Source: an uncultured Pontibacter sp.
Lineage (GTDB): Bacteria > Bacteroidota > Bacteroidia > Cytophagales > Hymenobacteraceae
Direction: 5' to 3'
Assembly: GCF_947499215.1 (NCBI RefSeq)
Contig: NZ_CANMNI010000001.1
Location: 1,755,523 to 1,819,522, forward strand
DNA length: 64,000 nucleotides
Numbering within the stretch: position 1 is the stretch's first letter; the number at the start of each line of letters is the position of its first letter. The notes below the pieces were generated by a model, which searched no databases, had not been told where the DNA came from, and saw nothing but the letters and a program-made list of their open reading frames with translations. Shown here in pieces: positions 1-64,000 of the stretch. The translations under genes were made by a program, and so were the position numbers.

Positions 1-245
1 TATCTGACACCAATGACTACATGCCTTTCCCGCTGCCTGAGGGTGAGGACTACGAAACCGTTGGTGGATTCGTGACGATGATCTACGGCCACATACCAGA
101 CGATGCAAACGAGATAGCCGAGTTCAATGAATATGAGATTCGGGTATTGGAGAAATCTGACCGCCGCGTGGAATGGGTACTCTTTACGATCAAAGAGGAT
201 TTCCAGTCGCAGATAGAGCCGCAAACAGAGGAGCCGACGCTTTAA
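1..245 (+). CDS. CorC/HlyC-family membrane protein, C-terminal end (partial)
   Basis: The gene enters from outside the window; the reading frame is already open at position 3. The visible roughly 80 residues match the CorC_HlyC (transporter-associated) domain that ends DUF21/CBS-pair membrane proteins of the hemolysin C, CorC and GldE type. The typical run is an acidic LPEGEDYETVGGFV strand, then IYGHIPD, and a closing strand with VLEKSDRRVEWV. In Bacteroidota such proteins include the gliding-associated GldE, but the tail alone cannot separate GldE from a generic magnesium/cobalt efflux homologue. It converges on the carbonic anhydrase gene with a hairpin between them. Confidence 0.8.
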   Translation, partial: SDTNDYMPFPLPEGEDYETVGGFVTMIYGHIPDDANEIAEFNEYEIRVLEKSDRRVEWVLFTIKEDFQSQIEPQTEEPTL

Positions 246-248
246 CTT

Positions 249-292
249 CCCGCTATACCTAGCCCTTCATGAGCGCAAGGTATAGCGGTGGG
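249..292. terminator. Inverted-repeat hairpin between convergent genes, built from AGGTATAG copies
   Basis: CCGCTATACCT (250-260) pairs with AGGTATAGCGG (278-288), an 11-bp perfect stem with a 17-nt loop. It lies between the stops of two convergent genes, so it probably serves as a bidirectional terminator, although no clear T-run follows. Both arms contain the over-represented octamer of this window. Confidence 0.55.
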
Positions 293-314
293 CTTATTTA
301 AATTTAACTTGTAG

Positions 315-1084: not shown

Positions 1085-2113
1085 TTAAATTAACCTTTTC
1101 CAAGTCCCTTTGCTCAGGTTGTACTTAAGCGTACTGGGCAGGGCTTTCCAGAAGTACTTGTTTATTTCTACGGCGAAGCTGGGTTGCATGTAACAGTTGA
1201 TCGTGCAGCCTTCGCAGGCCGGCAGCCGTCCCTCCTGCTCTTTCAGCGCTTTCACCTCTTGGCTCAGGTATAGTGCCCGCAAGTTGCCCTGTATCGGAAA
1301 GCTCTTAGTTCCGAGGTGGTAACAGGGTAGCACCAGTTCGTTTTCCGGGGAAATAACCAGTGTGGTGCTGGCGGCTTTGCACACCGGGTCCGACACCTTG
1401 TTGCCGCCGTCGCGCCGCAACTGCACGAAGCCCTCGTTCAGGTATACCCCCTTGCGTTTTCCGAAGGCGGTTAGGTAATCTAACTCCTCCTCGGACAACT
1501 GCTCTCCCACGGCCACATCATTGTACTCAAAGGCCGGATTGATGATGAGCATGAGTTTGTTGGGCTGTGTGATGCTACGGTACACCTCCTCCAGTTGATC
1601 CAGATTGTGCCGGAACACGGTGAAGAGAATATCCGGCCGCTCGCCTAGCCGCTCCGCCACTTGGATCGACTCCATCACGAAATCAAAACACGCCACGCCA
1701 CGTCCGGTGTCATGCTCTTCTTTGTGGGCAGAGTCCAGCGAGAAGTGCAGCATGTCTACCTTGCCTTTCAGCCGCTCGGCTAGCTTAGGGTATAGGAGTC
1801 CGTTGGTGGTTAGAGTGGTGATGAAGCCCATGTTGTGCGCCATACCTAGAAACTGGTCGATTTGACGGTGCAGCAAGGGCTCTCCTCCCGTAAAATCAAT
1901 CACCTGCACACCCAAACGTTTCAGGTCACGCAGGTTCTGCGCCACGTCTTCTAAGGTAATGTAGGGCGAAGGCTTTTCCCAGATGTCGCAGAACGAGCAC
2001 TTTGCGTTACAGCGGTAGGTAACGTAGTAGTTGCAAAGCACAGGTTTGGAAGTTAGGCGCATCTTGTCTGAGTGTCTGTCCAAAATTAAGGATAATGTAC
2101 GAGTATAGGCCAT
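1085..2113 (-). CDS. Radical SAM protein with C-terminal cysteine cluster
   Basis: A cytosolic enzyme of 342 residues. The SAM-cluster motif CNAKCSFC (C35, C39, C42) is followed by FTGGEPLL, the SAM-contacting GGE motif. The last 100 residues carry further cysteines (DPVCKA, LPCYH, CEGCTINC), as in SPASM or twitch domains that bind auxiliary Fe-S clusters. I place the start at the ATG (2113); a GTG four codons upstream is possible. No peptide precursor or partner enzyme lies next to it, so the substrate is unknown. It sits alone between two inverted copies of an intergenic repeat. Confidence 0.85.
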   Translation of the reverse strand: MAYTRTLSLILDRHSDKMRLTSKPVLCNYYVTYRCNAKCSFCDIWEKPSPYITLEDVAQNLRDLKRLGVQVIDFTGGEPLLHRQIDQFLGMAHNMGFITTLTTNGLLYPKLAERLKGKVDMLHFSLDSAHKEEHDTGRGVACFDFVMESIQVAERLGERPDILFTVFRHNLDQLEEVYRSITQPNKLMLIINPAFEYNDVAVGEQLSEEELDYLTAFGKRKGVYLNEGFVQLRRDGGNKVSDPVCKAASTTLVISPENELVLPCYHLGTKSFPIQGNLRALYLSQEVKALKEQEGRLPACEGCTINCYMQPSFAVEINKYFWKALPSTLKYNLSKGTWKRLI

Positions 2114-2235
2114 GATGCCGACCACGAATTTAGAGGCCTTCTAAAACACTTTCAGAAATTCTTATATTTATACCTGATGGTTGAAGGTTAATTGTTGAAT
2201 AGCTAAATGGTTAAATGGTTAGTCGTTTATTGCTT

Positions 2236-2370: not shown

Positions 2371-2802
2371 ATGCAAAGACAAAACATATCATCCGGCGCC
2401 GTATGGGAAGACACTATTGGGTATAGCCGAGCTGTGCGCATGGGCAACGTTATCGAAGTGGCTGGCACCACTGCCACCGATGGCGATCAGGTAATAGGTA
2501 TAGGTAATGTCTACGAACAAACAAGGTATATCCTTCAGAAAATAGAGAAAGCCCTGCAACAGGCGGGCGCTAGCTTGCAGGATGTGGTGCGCACTCGCAT
2601 TTACGTGACTGACATCAGCCAGTGGGAAGCCGTGGGGCGTGCGCATGGAGAGTATTTCCGAGATATAAAGCCCGCCTCAACTATGGTCGAAGTAAACAGG
2701 CTCATCAAGCCAGAGCAGCTGGTGGAGATAGAGGCTACTGCCATACTTAAAGCTGAAGATAAACTGATCAACCCCGCAGCTACCCCCTATGATGAAGTAT
2801 AA
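2371..2802 (+). CDS. RidA family reactive-intermediate deaminase
   Basis: A 143-residue YjgF/YER057c/UK114 protein. Members hydrolyse reactive enamine/imine intermediates made by PLP enzymes. Family marks are RTRIYVTD near residue 75, the segment VEVNRLIKPEQLVEIEATAI near the end, and an arginine (R110) where RidA enzymes carry their carboxylate-binding arginine. The length is slightly above the usual 125-130 because of a short C-terminal extension. The lipoprotein gene downstream overlaps its end by 14 bp in another frame, which suggests coupled translation. The start follows the intergenic repeat tail directly. Confidence 0.9.
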   Translation: MQRQNISSGAVWEDTIGYSRAVRMGNVIEVAGTTATDGDQVIGIGNVYEQTRYILQKIEKALQQAGASLQDVVRTRIYVTDISQWEAVGRAHGEYFRDIKPASTMVEVNRLIKPEQLVEIEATAILKAEDKLINPAATPYDEV

Positions 2803-3586
2803 ACTTTTACTCGCCTTATTGCTGCCGCTTTGTATCGCATGTTCCAGCACTGCCCCAGTTTCGCAAAGTACAACCGCTACCGAAGCAACAGCACCTACGC
2901 AGGTCATGCTGCTGGCCACTTTGCACGGCCTTCACAAAAGCAATCCGAACTATACCTACGACAAGGTATACGAACTCATTCGGAGGTATAACCCTGACGT
3001 GATCGGCGTTGAGATCAGGCCCGAAGACATAGGAAAGGACACTACATACCTGAAACAGATGTACCCCTTGGAGATGCGTCAGATCACAGTGCTTTTCCCA
3101 AAAGAGAAGGTATACGGCGTGGACTGGTATGGAGAAGAAGCTGCTGGACAGCTTCTGCCGGCAGATGCTTTTAAAGGAGGCAACAAGCAATTAACCGAGA
3201 TCAAGCAACTGGAGCGCGGACTTAACACCGATACCACGCTTAGCTCCCGCATGAAGCTGATTGCGGTGTTCCCGCAGAAAATGGTCGAGCTTGCCAGCAC
3301 CAGTACGCCCGCGCAGTTCAACAACTCGGGCCACTACGATTTGGTTGTAGAGCTCTTTTACAACCAAATGGATATCATGCTGCAGGGCACACCATACGAA
3401 GCCTATGCTCAGTTCAACCGCCGCCGCGATGAGCATATCGGCCGCAACATCGTCTCGCTGATCAAAGAAAACCCCGGCAAAAAACTCATATTCGTACTAG
3501 GCGCCAATCACCGCTTTGCAGCGGATAAGACTATTCGGGAGCAACTGGGGGAGCAGGTGCAGCTGGTGGAGGTACCTGAATTTTAA
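2789..3586 (+). CDS. TraB/GumN-like lipoprotein (DUF5694-type)
   Basis: A 265-residue predicted lipoprotein: signal LLLALLLPLCIAC with a lipobox cysteine near residue 18. The mature part looks like the TraB/PrgY/GumN (Tiki-like, erythromycin esterase-related) fold. It has an N-terminal strand VMLLATLHGLH, then PDVIGVEIRPED, and a C-terminal KLIFVLGANHRF, positions that in this superfamily hold putative metal ligands. The family resemblance is by pattern only and the activity is unknown. It probably sits in the periplasm or outer membrane. It overlaps ridA by 14 bp. Confidence 0.6.
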   Translation: MMKYKLLLALLLPLCIACSSTAPVSQSTTATEATAPTQVMLLATLHGLHKSNPNYTYDKVYELIRRYNPDVIGVEIRPEDIGKDTTYLKQMYPLEMRQITVLFPKEKVYGVDWYGEEAAGQLLPADAFKGGNKQLTEIKQLERGLNTDTTLSSRMKLIAVFPQKMVELASTSTPAQFNNSGHYDLVVELFYNQMDIMLQGTPYEAYAQFNRRRDEHIGRNIVSLIKENPGKKLIFVLGANHRFAADKTIREQLGEQVQLVEVPEF

Positions 3587-3678
3587 TTGCCCAGCCATGA
3601 TTTGATCGAGTATTTTACTATATTAGTTTGTCATTATATAGTAAATAAACTCTTTATCTTTTACAGGCAGTTTTGGCA

Positions 3679-4614
3679 ATGGAACAGCGCGAAATTGAAA
3701 ACGCGGAGAAGCACATCCGCAACGCATGGATTGTAGGCATTATCTCCACCGCTATGACCGTCGTGGTTTCGCTGGTAGGGGCTTATGATGAGGATTTCAG
3801 GTATAGCTCCGGTTTTGACACATGGACTCTGTTTGACGCAGCACTTATCGCGGCCCTTACTTACGGCATCTATAAGAAAAGCAGATTCAGCGCTTTGGGC
3901 CTGCTTATCTATTTTGTACTCTCCAAGTTTATCGCTGCAGCCTCCGACGGACAGTTTCCTTTTGGCTTAGGAGCACTCTTATTCGGCTATTTTTACCTGA
4001 TGGGCACCATCTCCGCTTTCAAACTGTACGCCCATAACAAGCGCCTTACTGAACAAGAAAGCGGTCCTAAGAAACGAAGCGTTGTATTTTATGCACTAAC
4101 CGGTTTTGGCGTGCTGGTAGTAGGGCTGTTTATCTGGGTGATCGTGATCAGCGCCGATGGTCCCGGCACCGAGGTAATTCCCGGCAGGCAGCTTAAAGCA
4201 AAATACGTGGAATTTGCCTTAAACGAAGGCCTGTTGGACCCGGAGGAGCGAATTCAATTCTGGTATTCCGATGCCTTCAGCGACTTCACAGACGGCTTCT
4301 ATTTCTTCACAGACAAAAAGGTGGTTGTTTACAACAAAACATGGGAGGAACCCGCGCTTCTCATGCCTTTCGACTCTATCCAGAACATCAGTTTTAGGGC
4401 AGATCCATCTTTTCTGGAAGATAGCCAACTGTTTCTGGAACTGACAGACGGCACCTACGTCAACTTCCCTGTATCAAGCGACAAGGGAGGCGATCAGCGC
4501 TTTCACAAGCGGTTGCGGACACTTTGGAAGAAGACACAGGCTGCGCAGCTAACCGATACACACCCAGAGCAGGAGGAGGAGCAAAGCGAAGTAACCGTTG
4601 TATCTTATGAATAA
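3679..4614 (+). CDS. Membrane protein with C-terminal PH-like domain
   Basis: A 311-residue protein I do not recognise by name. Four to five hydrophobic segments lie in residues 18-165 (for example around GIISTAMTVVVSLVG, LLIYFVLSKFIAAA and ALTGFGVLVVGLFIW). After the last, a soluble region of about 130 residues contains VVVYNKTWEEPALLMPFDSIQNISF, reminiscent of bacterial PH/YokE-like domains; it ends in a glutamate-rich tail. The ATG at 3679 is preferred over a TTG two codons upstream. A hairpin at 4733-4762 probably ends its transcript. Confidence 0.6.
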   Translation: MEQREIENAEKHIRNAWIVGIISTAMTVVVSLVGAYDEDFRYSSGFDTWTLFDAALIAALTYGIYKKSRFSALGLLIYFVLSKFIAAASDGQFPFGLGALLFGYFYLMGTISAFKLYAHNKRLTEQESGPKKRSVVFYALTGFGVLVVGLFIWVIVISADGPGTEVIPGRQLKAKYVEFALNEGLLDPEERIQFWYSDAFSDFTDGFYFFTDKKVVVYNKTWEEPALLMPFDSIQNISFRADPSFLEDSQLFLELTDGTYVNFPVSSDKGGDQRFHKRLRTLWKKTQAAQLTDTHPEQEEEQSEVTVVSYE

Positions 4615-4790: not shown

Positions 4791-5393
4791 ATGAAAAATT
4801 TAGTGCTAACCCTGTTTGCCCTGTTCGCCTTGAGTACCGCGGTGCAGGCGCAGTTTCTAACGGGTGGTGTGAAAGCCGGTGTCGGTTCCTCTAGTGTGGG
4901 GGTGCGCGATGCGGTTAACAACCCTTCTGAATACGCTAAGAAAGAATCCGTAACGAGTTATCATGCCGGTGCCTTTGCCCGCGTGAATGTACTGGGCCTG
5001 TTTATACAGCCCGAAGCCATATTTACCCAAACAGGAGGGCGACTGGAATCTAACCCTGATGCGACGTTGGCCAGCCGTGTGGCTGACATTAAGTTCAACC
5101 GATTGGACGTGCCCGTGATGGCAGGTATTAGCTTTGCCAACCTGATCCGCATCCAAGCCGGTCCGGTGGCCTCCACACTCCTGAGCGCACGCCAAGACGG
5201 ACAGAACATCAAAAGCTTTATGGAGAACTCCGACTGGGGTTATCAGGCCGGTGTGGGTCTCGACTTGCAACGCCTCACCGTTGACCTGCGCTACGAGCGC
5301 ATCAGCCGCAACTACGAAAACCCCGCTGACCAAAGCAATTACGATCTGGCTAACCAACAAATTCTGTTGAGCGTTGGTCTGAAGTTGTTTTAG
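4791..5393 (+). CDS. Outer membrane beta-barrel (PorT-like) protein
   Basis: A 200-residue secreted protein with a clean signal peptide (LVLTLFALFALSTAVQAQ, cleavage after AQA). The mature chain alternates short amphipathic strands, such as GGVKAGVG, FIQPEAIFTQTG and LTVDLRYERISRNY, and ends in LLSVGLKLF with a terminal aromatic residue. This is typical of small 8-stranded outer-membrane barrels of the PorT/OMP_b-brl_2 type in Bacteroidota. The substrate or role is unknown. A strong shared terminator separates it from the convergent abgT-type gene. Confidence 0.75.
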   Translation: MKNLVLTLFALFALSTAVQAQFLTGGVKAGVGSSSVGVRDAVNNPSEYAKKESVTSYHAGAFARVNVLGLFIQPEAIFTQTGGRLESNPDATLASRVADIKFNRLDVPVMAGISFANLIRIQAGPVASTLLSARQDGQNIKSFMENSDWGYQAGVGLDLQRLTVDLRYERISRNYENPADQSNYDLANQQILLSVGLKLF

Positions 5394-5447
5394 TAACAGG
5401 TATAGATCACCTGTCCCTGAAGAGGAGCTATACAAAACCACAGACAG

Positions 5448-5484
5448 AAAAGGCCGGTGTTGCTAAATGCGACACCGGCCTTTT
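5448..5484. terminator. Bidirectional Rho-independent terminator
   Basis: AAAAGGCCGGTGT pairs perfectly with ACACCGGCCTTTT around an 11-nt loop, with A-run and T-run on the two sides. It lies between the convergent outer-membrane barrel and AbgT genes. Confidence 0.95.
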
Positions 5485-5504
5485 CTATTTATAACTAAGC
5501 CTTA

Positions 5505-7034
5505 CTAAGGCTGCATATACATCTCGGCACCCGGGCCTATCGGCAGCCCGAGCAAAATCCAAACAATCAGCAGGATCACCCAGCCAATGAAGAACACGAT
5601 CGAGTAAGGCAGCATGGTCGAGATAACAGTGCCTATACCTGCGTTCTTGTCATAACGCTGGATAAAGGCCACGATCAGGGCGAAGTACGACATCATCGGC
5701 GAGATAATATTGGTCACGCTGTCACCGATGCGGTAGGCTACCTGTGTGAACTCCGGCGTATAGCCCAGCAGCATGAACATCGGGATGAAGACCGGTGCCA
5801 TGATCGCCCACTTGGCCGAAGCCGAGCCCATCACGAGATTGATCACAGCAGCCACCAAGATGAACATGATCATCAGCGGAATCTCGCTCAGGCCCATCGT
5901 CTGGAGCACATCAGCCCCGTTGATGGCCAAAATCAAACCAAGGTTTGTCCAGTTAAAGTAAGCCACAAACTGGGCCGCGAAGAATACGAGCACGATATAC
6001 GAGCCGAGTGTTTCCATGGACTTGGACATACCGCGCATCACGTCGCTGTCGTTTTTGATGGTTTTAGCGCCTATGCCATATGCGATACCGCCAATGGCAG
6101 AAAGCAGGAAGATGAAGGCTACAATGCCCGACATAAACGGCGAGTTCAGCACTTCGCCCGTCTCCGGGTTGCGCAGGTAGCCGTCTTCCGGCAACAAACC
6201 TCCCAATATGAAAGCGATAGAAGCCAGAATAGCCAAGGTAGCATACAATAGTCCGCGCTTCTCATCTCTGTTGAGGCGATCAATGCTCTGTGGTTTTTCG
6301 TCACCAGTGTACTCACCCAAGCGAGGTAGCACTATTTTCTCCGTCACCCAAGTACCCAGACCGGCTACTAGGAAGGTCGACACGAACATGAAGTAGTAAT
6401 TGGCCGCCGGATTCACAGTATAGTCTGCATCGATGATACGGGCTGCCTCCGTGGACAGACCAGCCAAAAGCGGGTCGATGGTACCCAAGAGCAGGTTGGC
6501 GCTGTAGCCACCTGACACACCGGCAAAAGCCGCCGCTAGGCCTGCCAGCGGATTACGGCCAGCCGCGAGGAAGATCACCGCCGCCAGTGGCACGAGTAGT
6601 ACGTAACCAACTTCAGAAGCCGTGTTGGAGATAACACCCGCAAACACGATCACAAAGGTGAGTAGTTTTTTTGGCGATGAAAGCACCACCAGACGCAGCA
6701 CCGCACCAATCAGGCCAGTGCCTTCGGCTATACCTATACCCAGCAATGAAACCAGCACCGTACCCAGTGGGGCGAAACTGGTGAAGTTGGTCACCATCTT
6801 AGTCAAGATCAGGTGCAGGCCTTCGGTGGAGAGCAGGTTAACCGGTGTTATGGTATCGCCTGTGCCCGGGTGTGTTACCGCCAGATCGAACAGACTGGCC
6901 ACCCACGACAGGATGATAACGAGCAGCGCAAAGCCTGCAAATAGCGTGGCAGGATGCGGCAGGGCATTGCCGATGCGCTCCACCACCGATAGGAATTTGT
7001 CAATTCCTGACTTTTTTTTCTTGATTTGCGTCAT
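5505..7034 (-). CDS. AbgT family transporter
   Basis: A 509-residue inner-membrane transporter, the same length class as E. coli AbgT (p-aminobenzoyl-glutamate importer). Family marks are an N-terminal [15 protein letters not shown], many hydrophobic segments, [18 protein letters not shown] in the middle, and the C-terminal [12 protein letters not shown] and [10 protein letters not shown]. Other AbgT-family members export sulfonamides, so the direction of transport is uncertain. The ATG at 7034 gives [10 protein letters not shown] and the expected length; a GTG ten codons upstream is less likely. It is divergent from the LD-carboxypeptidase gene. Confidence 0.93.
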
Positions 7035-7197
7035 AAAAAGTTTTTTTAAGGTTCCCGCTCGCACAGCGCTTGTTCAGATACAGGCGGCGGGCAAAGAGGC
7101 CATCGCAAACGGGTTCCGAAATTGCCCAAAATTTTGCAGCCTCGCAAATTTTAGCAAAAAGCCATACCTTCGTTTATCATCAAAAATTGCTTTCCCT

Positions 7198-8097
7198 ATG
7201 ATCACACCCCTCCAGCCCGGCGACAAAATCGCCATCATCGCCACCGCCCGACTCATCAGCCGCGAAGAAATTGCAGCCGCCATCGATATTCTGCAAGGCT
7301 GGGGACTGGAGGTTGAGGTTGGTCCTACAGTAGGCGCCCATTACGGTGTGTTTGCCGGCGACGATGCACTCCGCCTGCAGGACCTGCAGCAGGCCCTCGA
7401 CCGTCCAGACATCAAAGCCATAGTCTGTGCCCGCGGCGGCTACGGTACCACCCGCATCCTTGACCAAGTCGACTTCAGCCGCTTTGAGCGCAACCCTAAA
7501 TGGATAGTCGGTTTTAGCGACATCACTTCCCTCCTTTGCCACATCCACGGTTTAGGTATAGAAAGCGTGCACGGCATCATGCCTTTGCTCTTTCCGACAG
7601 GCACCGAAGCTGCGCTGGACAGCCTGCGCCGCGTGCTCTTCGGAGAGGAACTCAGCTACAGCACCGGCCCCCACGCTTTCAACCGCACAGGTATAGCCGA
7701 AGGCCAGCTTATAGGCGGTAACCTCGCGCTCCTGCACAATGTATCCGGCACCAGCTCTGACTTCACCACTAAGGGCAAGATCCTGTTTCTGGAAGACGTG
7801 GATGAGTACCTCTACAGTATCGACCGCATGATGGTGCACCTCGACCGCGCCGGTAAATTAAAGGATCTGGCAGGTCTCATCGTCGGCCATTTCAGTTTAA
7901 TGAAAGACAATGCCGTTCCTTTCGGCAAAGACGCATACGAGATCATAGCTGAGCACACTGGCAAGTACAACTACCCCGTTTGCTACAGCTTCCCGACCGG
8001 TCACGAACCGGATAATCTGGCCTTGGTTTGCGGGAGAAGAGCTAGGTTGGAAGTTGCAGAGAATGGGGTGAGGTTGGAGTACGTTTATTCCGCATAA
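7198..8097 (+). CDS. LD-carboxypeptidase (peptidase S66, LdcA/MccF type)
   Basis: A 299-residue cytosolic S66 serine peptidase. LdcA removes the terminal D-alanine from murein tetrapeptides during cell-wall recycling; MccF relatives cleave acyl-amidates. The catalytic set is visible: nucleophile S107 in VGFSDIT, E199 in FLEDVDEY and H269 in PTGHEPDN. The N-terminal LQPGDKIAIIATA and the ARGGYGTTR segment are typical. The start is the ATG at 7198; the open frame runs further upstream through the abgT promoter region, but that part has no family similarity. Which S66 activity it has cannot be told from sequence alone. Confidence 0.92.
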   Translation: MITPLQPGDKIAIIATARLISREEIAAAIDILQGWGLEVEVGPTVGAHYGVFAGDDALRLQDLQQALDRPDIKAIVCARGGYGTTRILDQVDFSRFERNPKWIVGFSDITSLLCHIHGLGIESVHGIMPLLFPTGTEAALDSLRRVLFGEELSYSTGPHAFNRTGIAEGQLIGGNLALLHNVSGTSSDFTTKGKILFLEDVDEYLYSIDRMMVHLDRAGKLKDLAGLIVGHFSLMKDNAVPFGKDAYEIIAEHTGKYNYPVCYSFPTGHEPDNLALVCGRRARLEVAENGVRLEYVYSA

Positions 8098-8157
8098 CAA
8101 GCTATATTGGATGTTATATGGAGTAGTTCCTTATATAATAAAGTTGTGTGGAATAAA

Positions 8158-8709
8158 ATGATGACAGAAAAGAGTAGGCAAGAAAGAATTAGTCATTTAA
8201 GACAGCACCAAGAACGGAAGCACTTTCTTGGTGAATTTTTATTGTCTTTGTCACAAATCGTAGGAAAAGAACTTACTGAAGAATCCGTGTTGACACTTGA
8301 AGAAACAAATACAGTTATAAACAGAATACATTACAGAGATTCTCAGGTACCGACTTTCAATTTCACTTTTCCATCATCACAAGCAGATAGTTTTAGGGAG
8401 ATTTTTTCCTGCCTTATTCCAGAAATTACAAATCCAAAGACCTATTTTACCACATCGAGAATTTATAGGTCATTCTTCCTTCAAATGAATTGTTCATTTG
8501 CGATTCCTAATTTTGAAAAGATTATCGAGTTAGATACGAATACATTTTATATATTTCATAAAGACTTAACGAATGGGCTGTGGGTTGACTACAATGAAGA
8601 AAATTGGTCAGAAAACGGAAAAACAGAATACGTGTGGACTTATGAATTACGGGTATGGGGTAAAGAATGGGTGAATAAGGTACATACAGCCTATAACAGC
8701 CGTACATAA
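8158..8709 (+). CDS. Hypothetical protein in an AT-rich insert
   Basis: A 183-residue protein that I do not recognise. It has no signal peptide or membrane segment. It begins with a charged helical stretch (KSRQERISHLRQHQERKHF), has a middle with many aromatic residues (FNFTFPSS, TSRIYRSFF), and ends with YVWTYELRVWGKEWV. The coding sequence is clearly richer in A/T than its neighbours, and codon choice (TTA, AAT, ATA) differs, which suggests horizontal acquisition. The ATG at 8158 is chosen; an upstream TTG at 8107 would add 17 residues. It is flanked by short inverted repeats that could be recombination sites. Confidence 0.55.
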   Translation: MMTEKSRQERISHLRQHQERKHFLGEFLLSLSQIVGKELTEESVLTLEETNTVINRIHYRDSQVPTFNFTFPSSQADSFREIFSCLIPEITNPKTYFTTSRIYRSFFLQMNCSFAIPNFEKIIELDTNTFYIFHKDLTNGLWVDYNEENWSENGKTEYVWTYELRVWGKEWVNKVHTAYNSRT

Positions 8710-8722
8710 AAACTACTTCACA

Positions 8723-8783
8723 CAACAAAGTTCAGCCTGTATGCTCTGCTACGCCTCGCCCATAGGCTGCACCAGTACGTTAG
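8723..8783. repeat. Bulged inverted repeat, possible attC-like site
   Basis: CAGCC-TG-TATG (8733-8743) pairs with CATA-GGCTG (8761-8769), leaving two unpaired bases in one arm. CAAC lies on the left (8723-8726) and GTTAG on the right (8779-8783). Integron attC sites have such imperfect palindromes with extrahelical bases between YAAC and GTTR boxes, but the right box does not fully match GTTRRRY. Confidence 0.25.
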
Positions 8784-8803
8784 TACCCACTTCGAAAAAC
8801 AGA

Positions 8804-10047: not shown

Positions 10048-10231
10048 TTAGTCTGTTTCTCCTTAACGTGAGTCCAGATGCCCGCGTTTCTACAGGTATA
10101 GTTAACAGCTGCATGACATAGCTTTAAGCTAAAACTTCACTAGAAAAATTATAACATATTACAACAATTTATTGCTTTTCCCGCTATACCTGTAATCTTA
10201 GCCCGAAAAGGTACTAATAACGATTACATCT

Positions 10232-13096: not shown

Positions 13097-13120
13097 CTGC
13101 ACATAGGTTTCTATACCTGA

Positions 13121-17706: not shown

Positions 17707-17796
17707 GATGCTGCTCAAAACATTTGACAGGTATAGGTAGAAGGTATAGCTATTCCCCTCTATCCCTATACTTTTAAATTTTAACTTTTAACTAAC

Positions 17797-22501: not shown

Positions 22502-22588
22502 GGTTTGGCTATGCAAAGAACGCCTAAAAGCGCTCTCCATTTTATACATGATAAATTAATGACGCCTCCGCTGAGGCAAATCAATCTT

Positions 22589-54060: not shown

Positions 54061-56712
54061 ATGCCGCCTCTCTACAAACTTAAACATGCGCACTGGGTAT
54101 CCCTGCTCTGGCTCATAGCCCTCGCCCTACCTTGCCGTCTGCAAGCGCAACAGCCGGGAAAATCCGAAGCACAGCAACTACAGGCCCGAAAGTTGGCCCC
54201 GCACCTACAGCATGTCACGCGAGTGGCCCTCGAGGCCGCTTACCGGGTACAGGTGCGGGACAAACAGGCGTTCTATACTTGGCTAAAACAGCAAAAGCTG
54301 CAAGTGAAAGTAAAGGTCACGCCCCACGATAGAAACACCCTGCTTCTGTCAGGTATAAACGCCACACAACTTCAATTGCTGCTCTCCTCCCCTGCAGTGC
54401 TTTACATTGATAAACCCAACCGCAGGGCCATAGAGGAACTGGAACTGAAAGACGCAGACTTTGTAGCCAACAATATTTACGCGGCACAGGCGGCCTTCCT
54501 CGGGCTCGCAGGGCAAGGCATGGGGGTGTCTGTCAAGGAAAATGCGTTCAACGCAACTGATATCGACTTGTTGGGCCGTGTGCTCTCTCCTGAATCGATT
54601 GGTGATAACCGCAGCCAGCATGCGACCACCATGGCTACCCTGATAGCCGGTGCCGGCAACTCCGGCCCAAACGGCAAAGGCGTAACGCAGCACACGCTTA
54701 TCGCCCACTCCAGTTTTGAAGAGCTGTACCCAGACAACAGTCAAAATCTCCTAAGCCAAGGTATAAGTGTACAGAACCATTCCTATGGTGTGGGGGTGGA
54801 AAACTACTACGGACTGGAAGCGCAGGCCTACGACCGGCAAAGTCACCAGCATCCTGAGATGCTCCACGTGTTCTCTTCCGGTAATAGCGGTGACAAGGCC
54901 GAAACCACTGGTGCCTATGCCAACCTGTTAGGTATAGCCAACCTGACCGGGCAATTCAAGACCTCTAAAAACTCGATTAGTGTAGGTGCGCTGGAGCCTA
55001 GCGGCGAAGTAGGTATACGCAGCTCCAGAGGCCCTGCCTATGATGGCCGCATCAAGCCCGAACTGGTGGCACATGGCACCGGAGGCACCTCTGAAGCCGC
55101 TGCTGTGGTGTCAGGTATAGCACTGCTGGTACAACAGGCTTACAAAGAAAGTTATGACAAGCTACCCCCCGCTTCTTTGGTGAAGGCGGCCATGATCAAC
55201 AGTGCTGAGGATGTTGGCCGCCCCGGCCCCGATTTTGAGTCCGGCTACGGAAGCACGGATGCACTCGGTGCCATCAGCACGATAGAAAACCAGCGTTTTG
55301 TGTTGAGCTCCCTATTGCAAGGCGAAACGCAAACCATTCAACTGAGTGTTCCTACCGGCACACATTTACTCAAAGCTACCCTTGTATGGCACGACCTGGA
55401 AGCGGAACCCAATGCAGAAAAAGCCCTCCTCAACGACCTTGACCTGAAGCTGCAGCGTAATGCTTCCGCCCAAAGTTGGCTGCCTTGGGTGCTTAGCACC
55501 TATCCGCACGCCGATTCGCTGAGGCTGCCCGCCCGCCGTGGCACAGACCGCCTCAATAACATTGAACAGATAACCGTTGCACAGCCATCTGCTGGCAGCT
55601 ATACCTTGACCGTAAGCGGCCACAGGGTGCAGCAAGGTCCGCAGGCTTTTAGTCTGGTGTATGAGTTGGAGCGAGGCATGCAGTGGCTATACCCGACCGC
55701 TGGCGCTACACTGCTAAGCGGCCAGCCTGCTCTGCTCAGCTGGCAAGGTATTCTCCCGAATGGAACAGGTCGTCTGGAGTACCGTTTGGCTGGAAGTGAG
55801 GGATGGCAGACAATTTCAGAAAACCTGACACTGCGTGAGCAGCGCTATACCTGGGCAATACCCGACACGGTAGCCGTGGCGCAACTGCGACTAAGCAGCG
55901 GGACCACGGAAATCGTATCAGAAGAATTTATGCTGAGTTGCCCAATAAGTCCGCAGGTAGGCTTTAATTGCGACAATCAGGTGATGCTGCATTGGCCAAG
56001 CCTACCCAACGTGCAACAGTTCCAGCTATACCGCTTAGGCGAAACACACCTCGAGCCGTTGCTTACAACCATGGACACCTTGGCCCTCCTCGATAAAAGC
56101 ATGTTACAAGGTGGGTATATAGCCCTTGCTCCGGTCCTGCAGGGCAGGCAGGCGCAATACGGCCGTTCCATACAGCTTCAGGAAGGAGGTTTAGGTTGTT
56201 ATGTTACCAGCTTTTTGCCACGGCAGTTCGTGATGGACACAGTAAGGCTAGACCTTGAAATCAGTACGCTCTACCAACTCGCCTCCCTCAGTTTGGAACG
56301 GCTGGAAAGCGGCGGATTTAAAACGGTGAATACCCTCTTTCCCGTCACTCAGCGGCAGCTCACATTCTCGGACAGCCGGCCACAGCCGGGCAGGAACATC
56401 TATCGTGTGAAAGTTGAGACAACCACGGGCAAAACGTTTTATAGCCAGCAAGAGGACGTAATCTATGCTTCTCAGGATTTTATGCAGGTATACCCAAGCC
56501 CTGTGGCAGCTGGGCAACCTTTTTTTGTAGCTATCAATGGAGATGCCGCCCATATTCAACTTTACGATCAGGTAGGCAGACTGAAATTGGAAACATCTGT
56601 GACCGGCGTGCTAAAAGAAGTCCAAACCAAAGGCCTGACTAAAGGCCTTTACATCATCCGGGCAAAGACTGAAACGGGTTATCTCCTCTCAGGAAAAGTA
56701 CTGCTTTTGTAG
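54061..56712 (+). CDS. Subtilisin-family (S8) peptidase with type IX sorting domain
   Basis: An 883-residue secreted protein. Signal (LLWLIALALPCRLQAQ), a pro-region to about residue 150, an S8 domain (about 155-420), beta-rich domains and a C-terminal T9SS type A tail (QVYPSPVAAGQPFFV, GLYIIRAKTETG). The S8 motifs are unusual: VSVKENAF stands where VxVIDTG is normal, HATTMATLIAG for the histidine motif and GTSEAAAVVSG for the serine motif. His, Asn (SSGNSG) and Ser are kept, but the aspartate appears to be glutamate. It is probably exported through SprA, encoded just upstream. Confidence 0.88.
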   Translation: MPPLYKLKHAHWVSLLWLIALALPCRLQAQQPGKSEAQQLQARKLAPHLQHVTRVALEAAYRVQVRDKQAFYTWLKQQKLQVKVKVTPHDRNTLLLSGINATQLQLLLSSPAVLYIDKPNRRAIEELELKDADFVANNIYAAQAAFLGLAGQGMGVSVKENAFNATDIDLLGRVLSPESIGDNRSQHATTMATLIAGAGNSGPNGKGVTQHTLIAHSSFEELYPDNSQNLLSQGISVQNHSYGVGVENYYGLEAQAYDRQSHQHPEMLHVFSSGNSGDKAETTGAYANLLGIANLTGQFKTSKNSISVGALEPSGEVGIRSSRGPAYDGRIKPELVAHGTGGTSEAAAVVSGIALLVQQAYKESYDKLPPASLVKAAMINSAEDVGRPGPDFESGYGSTDALGAISTIENQRFVLSSLLQGETQTIQLSVPTGTHLLKATLVWHDLEAEPNAEKALLNDLDLKLQRNASAQSWLPWVLSTYPHADSLRLPARRGTDRLNNIEQITVAQPSAGSYTLTVSGHRVQQGPQAFSLVYELERGMQWLYPTAGATLLSGQPALLSWQGILPNGTGRLEYRLAGSEGWQTISENLTLREQRYTWAIPDTVAVAQLRLSSGTTEIVSEEFMLSCPISPQVGFNCDNQVMLHWPSLPNVQQFQLYRLGETHLEPLLTTMDTLALLDKSMLQGGYIALAPVLQGRQAQYGRSIQLQEGGLGCYVTSFLPRQFVMDTVRLDLEISTLYQLASLSLERLESGGFKTVNTLFPVTQRQLTFSDSRPQPGRNIYRVKVETTTGKTFYSQQEDVIYASQDFMQVYPSPVAAGQPFFVAINGDAAHIQLYDQVGRLKLETSVTGVLKEVQTKGLTKGLYIIRAKTETGYLLSGKVLLL

Positions 56713-59046: not shown

Positions 59047-59108
59047 CCGCTTTTTGGCTAATATGAATTACGCCTAGGAGTTGCGTGATATCAGGCTCTG
59101 CCTATACC

Positions 59109-60260
59109 TTACGGCACTATCTTATTTACCGCATCAATCATCGCCATGACTTCGCTTGGATGATTGTTGATGCGCTCTCCCCGCTTCTTGCCCAGCCGCA
59201 CAATCACGAGCTCCTTCTCAGGTATAACAATGATATATTGCCCCAGTATACCGCGGGCATAGAAGACATACTGTTTTTTGTAATCAGGAAGCAGCCACCA
59301 CTGGTAACCATAGTGGTCAGAGGTTTCGTTTGTCAGAGCGTCGGTAAGGCCGTTAGGTGTAATCGAGGCCTGCACATATTCCGGCGACACAAGTGTGTCA
59401 CCCTGCCATACTCCCTGCTGCAGGTATAGCTGCCCGATGCGGGCGAAGTCGCGGGCGTTGGAGAAGAAACAGCAGTATGCCTTTTCACTGCCTCGGGGAC
59501 GGTCTATACTCCACTCGGCTTTGCGCTCAGCACCCAAAGGCCGCCACAGTTTCTCTTCTGCATAGTCAGCCAAGTTTTTTCCGGTAGCAGCTTCCAACAC
59601 GAAACCCAGCACCTGCGTATCGCCGCTTTTGTACTCGAACTTCTGCCCCGGCTCCTCCACCGCCTCCAACCGCTTGATAATTTTTTTTAAGTTAGAGCCG
59701 TAGTAGGCCTCGGTTGTCATGGAAAGCGGGTTGCTGTACGATTCGTCCCAGTTCAGCCCGGAACTCATCCAGAGTAGGTGCCTGAGTGTGATGTTGGCTT
59801 TACGCCCTTCTTTAAACTCCGGCAGAAAATCTCCCACCGGCTGGTCTATACTTTGAATGGCCCCTTCCTGCAGGGCTACACCCAGCAACACGCTCACGAT
59901 GCTTTTGGCCATCGAAAACGAATTGCTCAGCGACTCTTCGGAATAACCATCCCAGTACTGCTCATACAGCAGCGAGTCCTGATGTATGACAACAAACGCA
60001 ATTGACTCTAAATCTTGGTGCAGGCGCTGCAGATCGGTGGGTAGCCGTAGGTTATTATATTCGGAAGCCAAGGGCCAAGGCTGCGCACTTTCGGGCGCCT
60101 CTATTTTTCGCTGATGGAAAATGAGGTGATCGTCTATGTCAGCAAAGTTGTGATACAGTGCTTTGTACACATAGTTCTTGTCAGCCATGTGCAGCCATGC
60201 GGCTGCAAGCCCCAGTACCAGTATAGCGCCAAGACCGAATCGTTTGGTTTTCCGGTTCAT
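59109..60260 (-). CDS. Beta-lactamase-fold serine hydrolase
   Basis: A 383-residue protein with an N-terminal membrane/signal segment (LGAILVLGLAAAWLH) and a class C beta-lactamase/DD-peptidase-like domain. The SxxK motif is FSMAKSIVS, the YxN-like tyrosine is in EYKSGDTQ, and LLWMSSGLNWDESYSN is typical of the esterase/EstB-like members. Substrate unknown. Its start lies 8 bp after the stop of the propeller/barrel gene, so they are co-transcribed. Confidence 0.87.
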   Translation of the reverse strand: MNRKTKRFGLGAILVLGLAAAWLHMADKNYVYKALYHNFADIDDHLIFHQRKIEAPESAQPWPLASEYNNLRLPTDLQRLHQDLESIAFVVIHQDSLLYEQYWDGYSEESLSNSFSMAKSIVSVLLGVALQEGAIQSIDQPVGDFLPEFKEGRKANITLRHLLWMSSGLNWDESYSNPLSMTTEAYYGSNLKKIIKRLEAVEEPGQKFEYKSGDTQVLGFVLEAATGKNLADYAEEKLWRPLGAERKAEWSIDRPRGSEKAYCCFFSNARDFARIGQLYLQQGVWQGDTLVSPEYVQASITPNGLTDALTNETSDHYGYQWWLLPDYKKQYVFYARGILGQYIIVIPEKELVIVRLGKKRGERINNHPSEVMAMIDAVNKIVP

Positions 60261-60268: not shown

Positions 60269-63200
60269 TTAGAAGTCGTAGCCCAGTGTGACGTAAAACT
60301 TAGGCCCTTTGCGTGCATCATCCTCTTCACTCCAAGCCATGTCCAGTTTCCCGTACACTCCAAATAAAGTGGTACGTGCACCCACGCCATAGCCTAGCAG
60401 GAAAGGATTGCGGTAATTGATTACAGTGATCTCGAAAGGACTGACATTCGTTTGGTCGATGCGGCCGCCTATCACACGCGTGTTGATAGAGTTATTTCCT
60501 GTAAAAGGGTTGGTACCGTTATAGGCAGAGCCGGCGTCAGCGAAAGCCGTGAACTGCAGGTTGCGGAAGAAGCCTGATGGGATAGGCGCATCATAAAGAT
60601 ACTGCACGATTGGAACACGTAGCTCGACATTGGCTAGCAGGTACTTAGATCCGCGTCGCGCATTAAAATTAAAGCCTCGCAGTGGTGTCACGTAGTCCAA
60701 GTAGAACAAATCGGCTGGTGCGCGCACGGTAATGGCATTGGGGTCTCCCGGTTCATCCTCCGATGCAAAAAGCCAGTTGTCCATGCCGCCTATCAGGAAA
60801 TTTTTAGGGGCGTTTCCAAAGAAAGCGCCATACCCGATGCGGGCTGCCAAGATAATCTGCCGGTGCACCTTCTGGTAATGGCGCACATCCAAGTAAAACT
60901 TGTTGAAGTTACCGGCACCGTCCCCGAAGCTTTTGAGCGTGAGTAAGCCCGCCTTCATGCGCGTGCCCTCCAACATGTTCACGCCACGCACAACGGAGTT
61001 ATCGAACACAAGCTCTACATTGCCGCCACCGAAATTAGCGACACTATCGGGTGTGATAAAGCTGTTGACATACGTAAAGCGGGTGTTGACAAACTTAGGC
61101 TGCACGCGAATGCTAGTGCTGTAGGTGAGCGGATACACTAAGGTAGGTGAAAACTCATGCTTACCAAATCGTGCGACATGCCCCGGCAATTCGGGAATCT
61201 GTCCTACTATCACATCACGCCGGTACTGCATACCAATGTCAAAGCGGTTTTTCAGGTTCATGTACTCGGCGAACATGCGGCTCGTTTTGAGATCGGTTCG
61301 CAGAAAAGCACTGCCTCTGATGTGGTGGTTTTCGAAGAGGTCGCTCATATTAACCCCGCCCACAAGGCCAAATCCTAACTGAGGATCTGCATACACGGAT
61401 GTGATAACCTCGTGCACACTAAAGCGCAGGTCATAATCGATCGGGCCGGCGATGGGGATACCTCCCTCGGTGGTGCGGGCGCGCGGTGCGGCTGCCTGTG
61501 CCTTGGCCTGAGCCTCCTGCTGCTGTTGCTCCTTCAGGTCACTTTCAAACTGGTAGTTTTCAATGTCAACTTCCCCCTGTCGCTGTGGTTTCTTGCGTGT
61601 GCTGCTCTCTAGGAGCTTACGGGTTGTAGCCGCCACGCTGGCAGAGCTGCGCGCCCGAGTCTCCAGTATGATCTGGCGAGAGGATTTTGGCAGCGAGTCT
61701 GGTGCCGTTGAACTGTACTCCGGGAACAGGTATACGAAACTGCGGGCATTGTCGAAGGCTGTTAGAGCAAGCAAGTTTGTGCCGCTCTTATAGTCATAGC
61801 TCTCAATGTCCTGCACAAAGTTGCTGATCGGTCTTTTTCTGCCTGTCGCCACCTCATAGCGATAGAGGCTCCGCACGCCCGACTCCTCACTTAGGTATAC
61901 AAAGTTACCGTCTTCGGTAGCGCGGGGCATTATTTCGCTGGAAATGGAGAAAGTAACCTGACGAGCGTTGGCTCCCGTACCGTCACGAGGCATCAGAAAA
62001 ATATCGTAGTTGTTCACCACACTCGAAAAGGTGCCCGAGGCAGTCTCTCCGGTTGTGTCAACAAAGCGGTTGGAGCTAAAGGCGATCGTGTTGTTCCCAG
62101 CAAGGAATACGGGCTGTATATCGTCGTAAATATCGTTGGTGAGCTGCTGCTGCACACGCCCACCGCTCGAGAGCAGGTATAGGTCTGTCTGCCCATCGCG
62201 CACGGCACTCATCACAATCGTGCTGCCGTCGTCGGAGTAGCTCATATCACGTACCTGCGAAAACTGTTTAAGTGCGACTGCCGGTGTCCTGACGTCGTCA
62301 AAAACCGGGACGCGTGAGCGTCGACGGGTCGAATTTATCTGTCGCAACACCATCTCTCCGCGTCGCGCCTCTACAAAGCCCAACTGGGTATTAGTGCGCC
62401 ACGCTAGCACCGGCAGTCTGTAATCAATGCGCTGGTCCACTGTTCTATAGCCGCCTTTCCATACCACACGGCTGCGGTTGCTACGCACATCCTTCACTAT
62501 AATCTGGTAACTGCCATTCTCGTTTTCGGCATAGGCCAGCAAAGTGCCCGCCGGGTTAAGCACTGGTTCTGTATAGCGGATGTCTTTTTTATTCTTCTCG
62601 AACAGTTTATTATTAACAGGGAGCCCCACCAGCGGGTTGTCTGTGCGGGTGTTGATTTGGAGGTAGTAATTATGGCAGTCCTGCAGGAAACGCTTGTATG
62701 GGATGTTGAGACTGCTCGTGATGCCTATTTCCGTGTCACGGGTAATACGGGTAAGATTGAGAATGTTTTGAATGGAGGTATAGCCATAGCGCTCAGCTAT
62801 GTAATTCCAGATGGCCTGTCCGGCAAGTTCCTGATTGCGGGCCAACAAATCCTCCATACGGGCTTTATTGTTCACCAGCAGCATGTCGCGCATGTAGTTG
62901 TCCATGCGCAGGCTCCAGCCCTCGGCGGTATAGGCCGCCACACCGCTGATAAACCAGTCTGGCAGGCGCAGCAGGTAGCTGCTCTGCAGCGCCTCCTTCA
63001 AACTGCCGCCATACATCATGTCATTGAGCAGTAGCTCGGTCAATTGGTAGCTCAGGTCACGCTTGAAGTCGGTTTGGGTACCGTCGTAGGCCAGTTCCAG
63101 CTTGTTTTTGAGGAAGAGCGTTTCGCCGCCTGTCTGGAACTGATCGCGCTGCTGTCCAATGTTACTCTGCTTCAGGTCCGTCATCGAGTTATAGACGATG

Positions 63201-63469
63201 AGCGTGATTTTGGAGTAAGGATAGTAACCGATGAAACTGGTGATGCGCTTGAGCTCACGCTCCGCGTACTCGGCGGCGTTGCGGGCCGCTTGGTCACCGC
63301 CGGCGTAGAAGTATATGTTGAAGTTCTGGGTGCTGTAGAGCTTCCAATCGAAGTTCTTATACTGTATCCTGCTGCGGCCGAATGTCTGCACATTGGGCTG
63401 GGCAAAAGCCTCTTGGCCTGCCGTGACACAGAGCAGAAACAGCAACAATAACCTTATAGTAAAACGCAT
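60269..63469 (-). CDS. Large exported protein: gluzincin-like domain, beta-propeller and outer-membrane barrel
   Basis: A 1066-residue protein with a signal (LLLLFLLCVTAGQEAFA). Residues 35-280 resemble the peptidase MA/gluzincin domain but the HExxH helix is replaced by YQLTE (141-145) while LPDWFISGVAAY (169-180) is kept, so peptidase activity is unlikely. Residues 290-620 contain WD40/TolB-like (PD40) blades such as MSYSDDGSTIVMSA and SSEIMPRATEDGNFVYLS. A charged linker (610-670) precedes a C-terminal surface-antigen/BamA-type barrel ending FYVTLGYDF. Probably an outer-membrane protein with a periplasmic propeller; the role is unknown. Confidence 0.82.
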   Translation of the reverse strand: MRFTIRLLLLFLLCVTAGQEAFAQPNVQTFGRSRIQYKNFDWKLYSTQNFNIYFYAGGDQAARNAAEYAERELKRITSFIGYYPYSKITLIVYNSMTDLKQSNIGQQRDQFQTGGETLFLKNKLELAYDGTQTDFKRDLSYQLTELLLNDMMYGGSLKEALQSSYLLRLPDWFISGVAAYTAEGWSLRMDNYMRDMLLVNNKARMEDLLARNQELAGQAIWNYIAERYGYTSIQNILNLTRITRDTEIGITSSLNIPYKRFLQDCHNYYLQINTRTDNPLVGLPVNNKLFEKNKKDIRYTEPVLNPAGTLLAYAENENGSYQIIVKDVRSNRSRVVWKGGYRTVDQRIDYRLPVLAWRTNTQLGFVEARRGEMVLRQINSTRRRSRVPVFDDVRTPAVALKQFSQVRDMSYSDDGSTIVMSAVRDGQTDLYLLSSGGRVQQQLTNDIYDDIQPVFLAGNNTIAFSSNRFVDTTGETASGTFSSVVNNYDIFLMPRDGTGANARQVTFSISSEIMPRATEDGNFVYLSEESGVRSLYRYEVATGRKRPISNFVQDIESYDYKSGTNLLALTAFDNARSFVYLFPEYSSTAPDSLPKSSRQIILETRARSSASVAATTRKLLESSTRKKPQRQGEVDIENYQFESDLKEQQQQEAQAKAQAAAPRARTTEGGIPIAGPIDYDLRFSVHEVITSVYADPQLGFGLVGGVNMSDLFENHHIRGSAFLRTDLKTSRMFAEYMNLKNRFDIGMQYRRDVIVGQIPELPGHVARFGKHEFSPTLVYPLTYSTSIRVQPKFVNTRFTYVNSFITPDSVANFGGGNVELVFDNSVVRGVNMLEGTRMKAGLLTLKSFGDGAGNFNKFYLDVRHYQKVHRQIILAARIGYGAFFGNAPKNFLIGGMDNWLFASEDEPGDPNAITVRAPADLFYLDYVTPLRGFNFNARRGSKYLLANVELRVPIVQYLYDAPIPSGFFRNLQFTAFADAGSAYNGTNPFTGNNSINTRVIGGRIDQTNVSPFEITVINYRNPFLLGYGVGARTTLFGVYGKLDMAWSEEDDARKGPKFYVTLGYDF

Positions 63470-63473
63470 GCGC

Positions 63474-64000
63474 TTAGAGTTCTTGGTTATGGTGTTTTAT
63501 GTAGTCGTAATATAACGAAAAATATCTCGAAATCTGTACGTCGGGTAGTATTTCCGCATCTGCTTTTACCAGTGCCTTCGCAAACATATCGGCTAGGTAT
63601 GGCGCCATCAACACCCCTTTAGAGCCCATGCCGTTGAACACACTCAGCTGCGCATGCTCCGGATGCCGCCCTATGAGTGGGCGACGGTCGCGCACGGCAG
63701 GCCGTATGCCGGCCCAGTGGTTTCTGAGTTGGTATGGTATAGCGGTAATTTGCTCGAACCGCTCGCTCAGTTCCGCCTTTCCCTCTGCTGTTGGCAGTTC
63801 GTCTGCCTCCCGCCAGTTGTAGGTAGCCCCAATCTTAAAGCGGCCCTCACCTACCGGAACAACGTAAACGGCTTTATTATAGATACACTCCGGGTTAAAA
63901 TCCTCCGTTTTCACCTCCAGCACCTCGCCTTTTGTAGGCTGCAGCGGCAGCCACTTAAAATAAGGATTGTGCACGGCCTGCCATCCTTCACAGAAAACCA
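63474..64000 (-). CDS. FAD-dependent oxidoreductase (DAO family), C-terminal part
   Basis: The gene runs off the right edge; the reading frame stays open through 64000. The visible 175 residues match the C-terminal region of glycine/D-amino-acid oxidase-like flavoproteins: VVPVGEGRFKIGATYNW, HWAGIRPAVRDRRPLIGRHPEH and the FAD-closing NGMGSKGVLMAPYLADMFA. The substrate cannot be read from this part. It lies 4 bp upstream of the large barrel gene, so the three genes down to 59109 probably form one operon. Confidence 0.85.
   Translation of the reverse strand, partial: VFCEGWQAVHNPYFKWLPLQPTKGEVLEVKTEDFNPECIYNKAVYVVPVGEGRFKIGATYNWREADELPTAEGKAELSERFEQITAIPYQLRNHWAGIRPAVRDRRPLIGRHPEHAQLSVFNGMGSKGVLMAPYLADMFAKALVKADAEILPDVQISRYFSLYYDYIKHHNQEL

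Follow-up and report, generated by a model that had tools for sequence, protein, structure and literature searches.

The octamer AGGTATAG is the dialect of one clade of 12 Pontibacter species within a set of genome-wide words that are kept over time and spelled according to phylogeny. Its study began with a 64-kb stretch of DNA (the window, C1:1755523-1819522 of a 4.31-Mb Pontibacter genome, G000), for which a preliminary description had reported roughly 40 copies, 24 in one orientation against 19 in the other, and an excess of about 20-fold. Exact counting gave 24 copies of AGGTATAG and 19 of CTATACCT. The sum of 43 compares with 1.9 expected from base composition, an excess of ~22-fold. By composition excess, no other 8-mer of the window ranks above AGGTATAG, and the 6-mers are led by GGTATA, which had been noted together with TATACC (144 vs 30.9 expected).

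A word that is maintained throughout the genome and whose dialects follow the phylogeny suggests a sequence-specific protein whose specificity drifts. From the spellings we infer that the words are the sites of one DNA-binding protein that changes its specificity stepwise while TATA stays fixed. The analogy with the DNA uptake sequence (DUS) dialects of Neisseria suggests, at close to even chances, that this protein would pick out self DNA when DNA is taken up for natural transformation.

Abundance and placement of the word

The excess reaches far beyond the window. The whole genome holds 1,397 + 1,426 = 2,823 copies of AGGTATAG (0.65 per kb) vs 52 + 71 = 123 of the reversed word, which served as a control. 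In 464 kb of the genome, 290 copies were counted vs 29.4 from a third-order Markov model whose expectation is itself raised by the presence of the word, a 9.9-fold excess. A genome-wide count close to Markov expectation had been named beforehand as a refutation; the actual count greatly exceeds what is expected. A larger sample of 1.264 Mb (400 kb, 800 kb and the window; 29% of the genome) contained 779 copies, with 570 in genes, 194 in gaps and 15 at edges, genes here and throughout being those of a model based on open reading frames (ORFs). Density is 0.99 per kb in gaps and 0.53 in genes. The earlier statement that copies are concentrated in gaps thus holds for density, which is about twofold higher there, and not for numbers, as most copies are coding.

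Codon usage had been raised as a possible full explanation and is ruled out as the cause by within-gene synonymous shuffles of the 1.264-Mb sample, which left ~44 coding copies vs the 570 observed. Copies in the sense of the gene numbered 224 vs 11.4 after shuffling (19.6-fold) and gene-opposed copies 346 vs 32.7 (10.6-fold); in the 464 kb, the coding figures were 227 vs 17.4 (13-fold). Coding copies occupy all reading frames of the sample, as first described, with one phase dominant.

Orientation is near balance in all but two of 13 blocks, each no longer than 100 kb (the exceptions are 19/37 and 13/41), in a polarity test made without the origin and terminus located. Because of this balance, already remarked on for the window, a Chi-type or KOPS-type (FtsK orienting polar sequence) word with replication polarity was rejected. 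The result also bears on another explanation, in which the words serve as chromosome-organizing or repair sites for a protein of the nucleoid, of segregation or of recombination, and selection keeps them spread. Such a role agrees with thousands of copies on both strands and with their being better conserved than controls. We consider it improbable, as there is no consistent replication polarity, no single region of the sampled 29% holds the words (mean 6.2 and variance 8.2 per 10-kb window), and both respelling and whole-lineage loss are unexpected for an essential chromosomal site.

Word density follows GC content only weakly overall (rho 0.16, P 0.07). One 48-kb stretch of low GC (C1:801262-848939, GC 0.42) has 4 words inside vs ~30 expected and is probably foreign.

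In the 464 kb, the motif takes the form (c)AGGTATAG(c) with no wider flanks. The left flank is one base (C 0.44, A 0.29) and the right flank about two, with C at 0.49 in the first and 0.38 in the next; farther out than -1 to +9, every position carries at most about 0.05 bit. A dispersed repeat or insertion element was looked for in the same 464 kb as conserved sequence beyond the word and was not found, and since no flanks are conserved beyond ~2 bases, the words do not represent inserted copies of a repeat. The same lack of flanks speaks against another form of DNA-transfer drive, in which packaging by a gene transfer agent or the target preference of a mobile element spreads the word. Any transfer favoring word-bearing DNA would, in principle, yield the same pattern, and we rate this explanation as very improbable. 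Changes are tolerated at positions 1, 7, and 8 and are rare within GGTAT. Base preference spans ~10 bases in both AGGTATAG and AAGTATAA, a second dialect; neither is palindromic, and a third, AACTATAG, has a weak palindromic extension only.

Dialects across Pontibacter

Genome-wide counts revealed 2,823-5,222 copies of AGGTATAG in 12 of 50 Pontibacter genomes, 173-833 in the remaining 38, and no more than 212 in each of 154 other genomes of the family. A tree was built from the nusA-infB block of 41 genomes and four outgroups. On it, the 12 rich genomes form one clade (support 1.0) and AGGTATAG arose once. The best named matches of the G000 infB gene are Pontibacter sp. BT731 (88%) and FD36 (85%), which both use AGGTATAG (26 and 15 copies).

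The dialect of each genome was read from the 20-kb infB region of the same 41 of the 50 genomes. In this syntenic region, many species poor in AGGTATAG were found to be rich in AAGTATAA or AACTATAG. In pooled clades (7 and 6 genomes), AAGTATAA/AACTATAG reached 144 vs 3.6 and 153 vs 3.1 expected. Whole genomes gave the same picture: AASTATAR (AAGTATAA or AACTATAG) exceeds its reversed control 3.6-22-fold in 28 of the 50, vs ratios of 1.4-1.8 in the 12 AGGTATAG genomes and 0.9-2.1 in the 10 others. One genome (G065) carries 13,794 AASTATAR copies.

AAGTATAA is probably the ancestral dialect, since the basal pair has it, as do a number of other lineages (16 of the 41 tree genomes), P. mucosus being an example of a holder (33 in 23 kb). 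AACTATA (AACTATAG) marks a derived clade of seven species (support 1.0). Named holders of AACTATAG are P. populi and strain Tf4 (35 and 38 copies). Within the AACTATA clade, AAGTATA and AACTATA occur side by side in G032 and G026, at 15-21 per 10 kb. P. vulgaris is mixed and P. beigongshangensis is without any word in excess. A clade of five genomes (G023, G024, G064, G069, and G036) has hardly any AAGTATAA excess; among them, G069 (loci L142 and L206-L208) shows an excess of ATATATA/CTATATA, with 104 and 78 in 80 kb, and ATATATA is possibly one more dialect. The common frame of the dialects is A-nn-TATA-r, represented by AGGTATAG, AAGTATAA, AACTATAG/A and possibly, in the one genome, ATATATA. 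Three further signals are too thin to count as dialects: a weak GGTATA signal in G036, GAGGTAGAG in G027 (informative flanks, possibly a repeat), and a AATTATTC-like word in G025/G068. In G019, an array of AGGTATAG with ~66-base spacing (C1:1944098-1946633), CRISPR-like or a tandem repeat, inflates the forward count of that genome.

Conservation and change of spelling

Counts in relatives and conservation at syntenic positions had been proposed as checks in the preliminary description. The main alignment comprised 28 of the 41 genomes with gapped sites dropped, and control octamers were matched for AT number or composition, with codon phase left unmatched. Over all pairs within a clade, an identical word was found at the aligned place at a rate of 0.68 for AGGTATAG (0.31 AT-matched, 0.29 same-composition), 0.61 for AACTATAG (0.30 and 0.29), and 0.43 for AAGTATAA (0.33 and 0.34). 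The words are therefore 1.3-2.2 times better kept within clades than AT-matched octamers. Similarly, when G000 was compared with other AGGTATAG species, its word was identical in 45-73% of cases (9-12 sites per comparison), vs 19-25% for all octamers and 20-26% for same-composition octamers.

Moreover, some places are shared between dialects. At 5 of 44 AGGTATAG sites, clade A has AAGTATA[AG] in the identical column on the same strand, where shifted positions gave an expectation of 0.20 and a maximum of 2. Clades A and D share 7 sites (of 73 and 89) vs 0.16 expected; between AGGTATAG and clade D, same-column sharing was found at none of the 44 sites. The word at 22836 of the window, for instance, reads AGGTATAG in every one of the 12 clade species, and in all eight aligned species of clade A it reads AAGTATA[AG]. 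From such same-column replacement it follows that some places are kept while their spelling changes.

Single-base deviations at occupied sites numbered 17, 3, 2, 5, 3, 6, 13, and 23 at positions 1-8. They fall at all eight positions, mostly 1, 7, and 8, with no single substitution dominant, and therefore fit poorly with one repair pathway. Mutation or repair bias of the very-short-patch type could make words without function, as could codon usage alone, but this is scarcely credible: besides the deviations and the shuffles described above, counts of neighbor words are 0.4 to 3.5 of Markov expectation and no class is conspicuously emptied.

The main rival explanation is modeled on the highly iterated palindromes (HIPs) of cyanobacteria. 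A resident orphan methyltransferase would modify the word or its core, a methylation-linked process (e.g. methyl-directed repair) would ratchet neighboring sequences toward the word, and dialects would be changes of methyltransferase specificity. The density of 0.65 per kb is of HIP1 order, and deviations gather at the ends as they do in HIPs (PMC4390886). Cyanobacteria with alternate HIPs are described in the same source as having a matching methyltransferase. A motif search in the sampled 29% of the G000 genome returned nine ORFs, a few of them methyltransferase-like, and nine genomes of the family outside Pontibacter carry a palindromic word, CCTAGG. On the other side, AGGTATAG and AAGTATAA are non-palindromic with a preference of ~10 bases, and usual methyltransferase sites are shorter than this. 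The mismatch spectrum covers all eight positions, and stepwise dialects that differ by one or two bases around a fixed TATA are unlike wholesale swaps of specificity. Overall, a HIP-type origin seems unlikely, if less so than the other alternatives.

Sites in the window and inverted pairs

Fifteen of the 43 window copies lie in gene gaps. The 18 example positions given in the preliminary description are all real within 4 bases (e.g. 7552 is 7554, 7692 is 7689, 17726 is 17729, 52361 is 52357, and 55109 is 55113). The copies of the word in the window are as follows.

253-260, minus strand: gap; inverted pair with 278
278-285, plus strand: gap; inverted pair with 253
1266-1273, plus strand: inside ORF 1085-2125 (minus)
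2496-2503, plus strand: inside ORF 2371-2802 (plus)
2950-2957, minus strand: inside ORF 2789-3586 (plus)
3799-3806, plus strand: inside ORF 3673-4614 (plus)
5398-5405, plus strand: gap
5633-5640, minus strand: inside ORF 5505-7064 (minus)
6728-6735, minus strand: inside ORF 5505-7064 (minus)
7554-7561, plus strand: gap
7689-7696, plus strand: gap
10094-10101, plus strand: gap
10184-10191, minus strand: gap
13111-13118, minus strand: gap
16038-16045, minus strand: inside ORF 15217-16275 (minus)
17729-17736, plus strand: gap; direct pair with 17742
17742-17749, plus strand: gap; direct pair with 17729
19110-19117, plus strand: gap
21276-21283, plus strand: inside ORF 21008-22549 (minus)
22836-22843, plus strand: inside ORF 22618-23751 (minus)
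31513-31520, minus strand: gap; arm of conserved hairpin
31533-31540, plus strand: gap; arm of conserved hairpin
31567-31574, minus strand: gap
31687-31694, minus strand: inside ORF 31595-33094 (plus)
31765-31772, minus strand: inside ORF 31595-33094 (plus)
32179-32186, plus strand: inside ORF 31595-33094 (plus)
33574-33581, plus strand: gap
35226-35233, minus strand: inside ORF 34683-36491 (plus)
42246-42253, minus strand: inside ORF 41198-42706 (plus)
43307-43314, plus strand: inside malic enzyme-like ORF 43002-45275 (plus)
45614-45621, plus strand: inside ORF 45276-45869 (plus)
50936-50943, minus strand: inside ORF 45885-53066 (plus)
51137-51144, plus strand: inside ORF 45885-53066 (plus)
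52357-52364, minus strand: inside ORF 45885-53066 (plus)
52712-52719, minus strand: inside ORF 45885-53066 (plus)
54930-54937, plus strand: inside ORF 54061-56712 (plus)
55113-55120, plus strand: inside ORF 54061-56712 (plus)
55599-55606, minus strand: inside ORF 54061-56712 (plus)
55845-55852, minus strand: inside ORF 54061-56712 (plus)
59102-59109, minus strand: touches edge of ORF 59109-60260 (minus)
59422-59429, plus strand: inside ORF 59109-60260 (minus)
62175-62182, plus strand: inside ORF 60269-63469 (minus)
62776-62783, plus strand: inside ORF 60269-63469 (minus)

Inverted word pairs within 45 bases and not wholly in genes numbered 11, and 5 of the 11 have TTTT no more than 20 bases away on at least one side. 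The pair at 31513/31533, which 11 of the 12 clade species retain, forms part of a terminator-like hairpin, listed here with its position.

31507-31546, plus strand: hairpin whose stem holds the inverted pair 31513/31533, followed by TTTTT; fold -25 kcal/mol, z -5.67

A simple terminator scan of the window did not report this hairpin. Inverted pairs of uptake words have been proposed as terminators (PMC2346458).

Positions 22844-31512, 8.7 kb across the nusA and infB genes, are without the word. The spacer 3' of infB (29017-29107 in the window, and aligned relatives) is long in several sister species, with up to six words in G063 (511 bases) and none in the 102 bases of G000; over 12 species, 29 of 31 words in this spacer have one orientation. 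The product of ORF 54061-56712 has a weak subtilisin-type (mycosin) match and a type A sorting domain of the type IX secretion system, and a scan of the genome contigs with this protein as query gave no match.

Self-DNA uptake and its machinery

Under self-DNA uptake, fragments bearing the word would be imported more often, through the ComEC channel, and would recombine into the chromosome, so that words spread and are preserved by molecular drive without replication polarity. Instead of a type IV pilus, the outer-membrane receptor would be of another sort, possibly like the one used in Riemerella natural transformation. TATA could, speculatively, be where the DNA has to bend or open. The fuller form of this proposal, a Pontibacter-wide, sequence-specific self-DNA uptake independent of type IV pili, in which receptor specificity shifts at two or three bases beside TATA, gives every clade a dialect of its own and thereby hinders gene exchange across clades, is held more tentatively than uptake itself; the relaxed intermediates would then be the AASTATA genomes G032 and G026. 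A related model, in which the word is both methylated and needed for uptake, would join the uptake and methyltransferase explanations. Campylobacter jejuni reportedly has methylation-dependent uptake. For Pontibacter, this combination appears about as improbable as a chromosome-organizing site, or marginally more so.

Several observations weigh against self-DNA uptake, beginning with the machinery. The type IV pilin family PF07963 and the platform family PF00482 were each found in 0 of 50 Pontibacter genomes, where 8 and 13 of 14 control genomes, respectively, were positive; a very divergent type IV pilus system could escape both profiles. On these counts a type IV pilin (ComP-type) receptor was rejected, and the known receptor type therefore seems unavailable. 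ComEC is present in 50 of 50 genomes, which agrees with uptake. Its loss from word-less genomes was sought among the 50 and not seen, and because word-less genomes keep it too, its presence is not diagnostic. Internal stops in ComEC were found in two genomes (G009:C76:160505-161305 and G021:C1:2771217-2771876), and G009 is word-rich (5,041 copies) despite the stop.

The one receptor candidate that was tested fared no better. Transformation of R. anatipestifer requires ComEC, DprA, ComF and RecA together with four proteins of unfamiliar kinds, one of which is a DUF5689 protein (PMC8459023), and from the Riemerella screen the DUF5689 protein had been predicted as the word receptor. PF18942 (DUF5689) matches occur in 22 of 50 genomes. 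A search with the protein gave matches in 19 of 50, full-length in eight (G000 and seven others, 52-56% identity), with 33% relatives in four further word-rich genomes (G059, G010, G063, and G005) and partial matches in the rest. No relative was found in G015, which is word-rich and the closest by whole-region identity. Owing to this inconsistent presence among the 50 genomes, the DUF5689 protein was rejected as the receptor, which again counts against the proposal. The protein has a lipoprotein-like N-terminus and its gene adjoins a SusD-like gene (locus L149, 967-2283 and 2284-3582). Relatives in the AACTATA clade adjoin a similar upstream ORF. Around ComEC itself, 20 genomes were compared and no gene among the neighbors tracks the word across dialects; four downstream ORFs occur in the 6 sampled AGGTATAG genomes and are missing from the remaining 14 regions, a pattern that may reflect no more than synteny within the clade.

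The remaining points against uptake come from the words themselves. Two clades show a clear conservation excess, the AAGTATAA clade a modest one. Words are not evenly spaced (coefficient of variation 1.0-1.67), and some 10-kb windows are word-poor although their GC is ordinary. An excess of gene-opposed orientation is reported for uptake words (PMC2346458); the bias seen here (346 vs 224) was dropped as evidence because synonymous shuffles are more strongly biased the same way (32.7 vs 11.4). Alternate HIPs exist in cyanobacteria, so dialects are compatible with a methylation origin as well (PMC4390886). Finally, among the matches listed for open PubMed Central papers there was no report of transformation in Pontibacter; the single paper that mentions both concerns LexA.

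Comparison with known systems

Descriptions of uptake words exist for Neisseriaceae and Pasteurellaceae (PMC1939737), and both systems use type IV pili (PMC7965970). The DUS of Neisseriaceae occurs in thousands of copies, and its spelling variants follow the phylogeny around a short core that stays the same (PMC3630211). The Pontibacter words, for which uptake is proposed by analogy, resemble it in copy number, phylogenetic spelling, and shared core, and also in their inverted pairs, terminator-like here and proposed as terminators for DUS (PMC2346458). They differ in phylum, in sequence, in length (an 8-mer vs 10-12-mers), in that type IV pilus families were not found in the 50 genomes, and in that some lineages are without a word. 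The word may work like DUS by function; as a member of that class it falls short in the type IV pilus feature. The uptake signal sequence (USS) of Pasteurellaceae is likewise short and over-represented, and a subclade has a different motif (PMC2346458), a pattern that Pontibacter shares; sequence, phylum, and the failure to find pilus families again set the two apart.

HIP1 and the alternate HIPs are similar in density (~1 site per kb), lineage-specific alternatives, and end deviations (PMC4390886). They differ in being palindromes tied to matching methyltransferases, whereas AGGTATAG is non-palindromic. Riemerella shares the phylum Bacteroidota and ComEC with Pontibacter. R. columbina prefers its own DNA (PMC7965970), and the eight essential transformation genes named in PMC8459023 include none for a type IV pilus. 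Unlike the Pontibacter words, candidate k-mers in Riemerella are A/T-rich (PMC7965970), and its DUF5689 protein is without a consistent Pontibacter counterpart.

The preliminary description had suggested an uptake signal, a HIP1-type word or a methylation site. By these comparisons the uptake-signal class fits best, given the two orientations, dialects with a shared core, syntenic upkeep, few low-GC copies, and terminator-like pairs; for HIPs, the density and edge deviations fit and the non-palindromic sequence does not. Among word-making processes, self-DNA uptake would account for most features, with methyltransferase-linked HIPs second. The matches listed for open PubMed Central papers included no description of AGGTATAG or its dialects, none of uptake words, competence, or methylomes in Pontibacter or Hymenobacter, and none of uptake or iterated words in Bacteroidetes.

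If true, self-DNA uptake would give a genetic handle on the transformation machinery of a phylum in which that machinery is largely obscure. The dialects, intermediates included, would document in nature how the receptor evolved and would allow a test of words as species barriers. If the words are linked to methylation instead, they would form a non-palindromic HIP class with in-place replacement, with bearing on the origin of HIPs. With ancestral, derived, mixed, and lost states, the 50 genomes make the question directly testable.

Other words in the family

Outside Pontibacter, the CCTAGG palindrome has 5,325-8,806 sites in 9 of the 154 family genomes (G152, G168, G136, G094, G100, and G187; G221, G222, and G225), 2,027-2,331 in three more, 1,209 in one, and ~50-900 in the rest. 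GGATCC, counted as a control, has 0-10 sites in many family genomes, as if avoided. In Hymenobacter, loci L040 and L034 show an excess of CCCTAGG and ACCTAGG, and CCTAGG-type words are possibly further genome words of another type.

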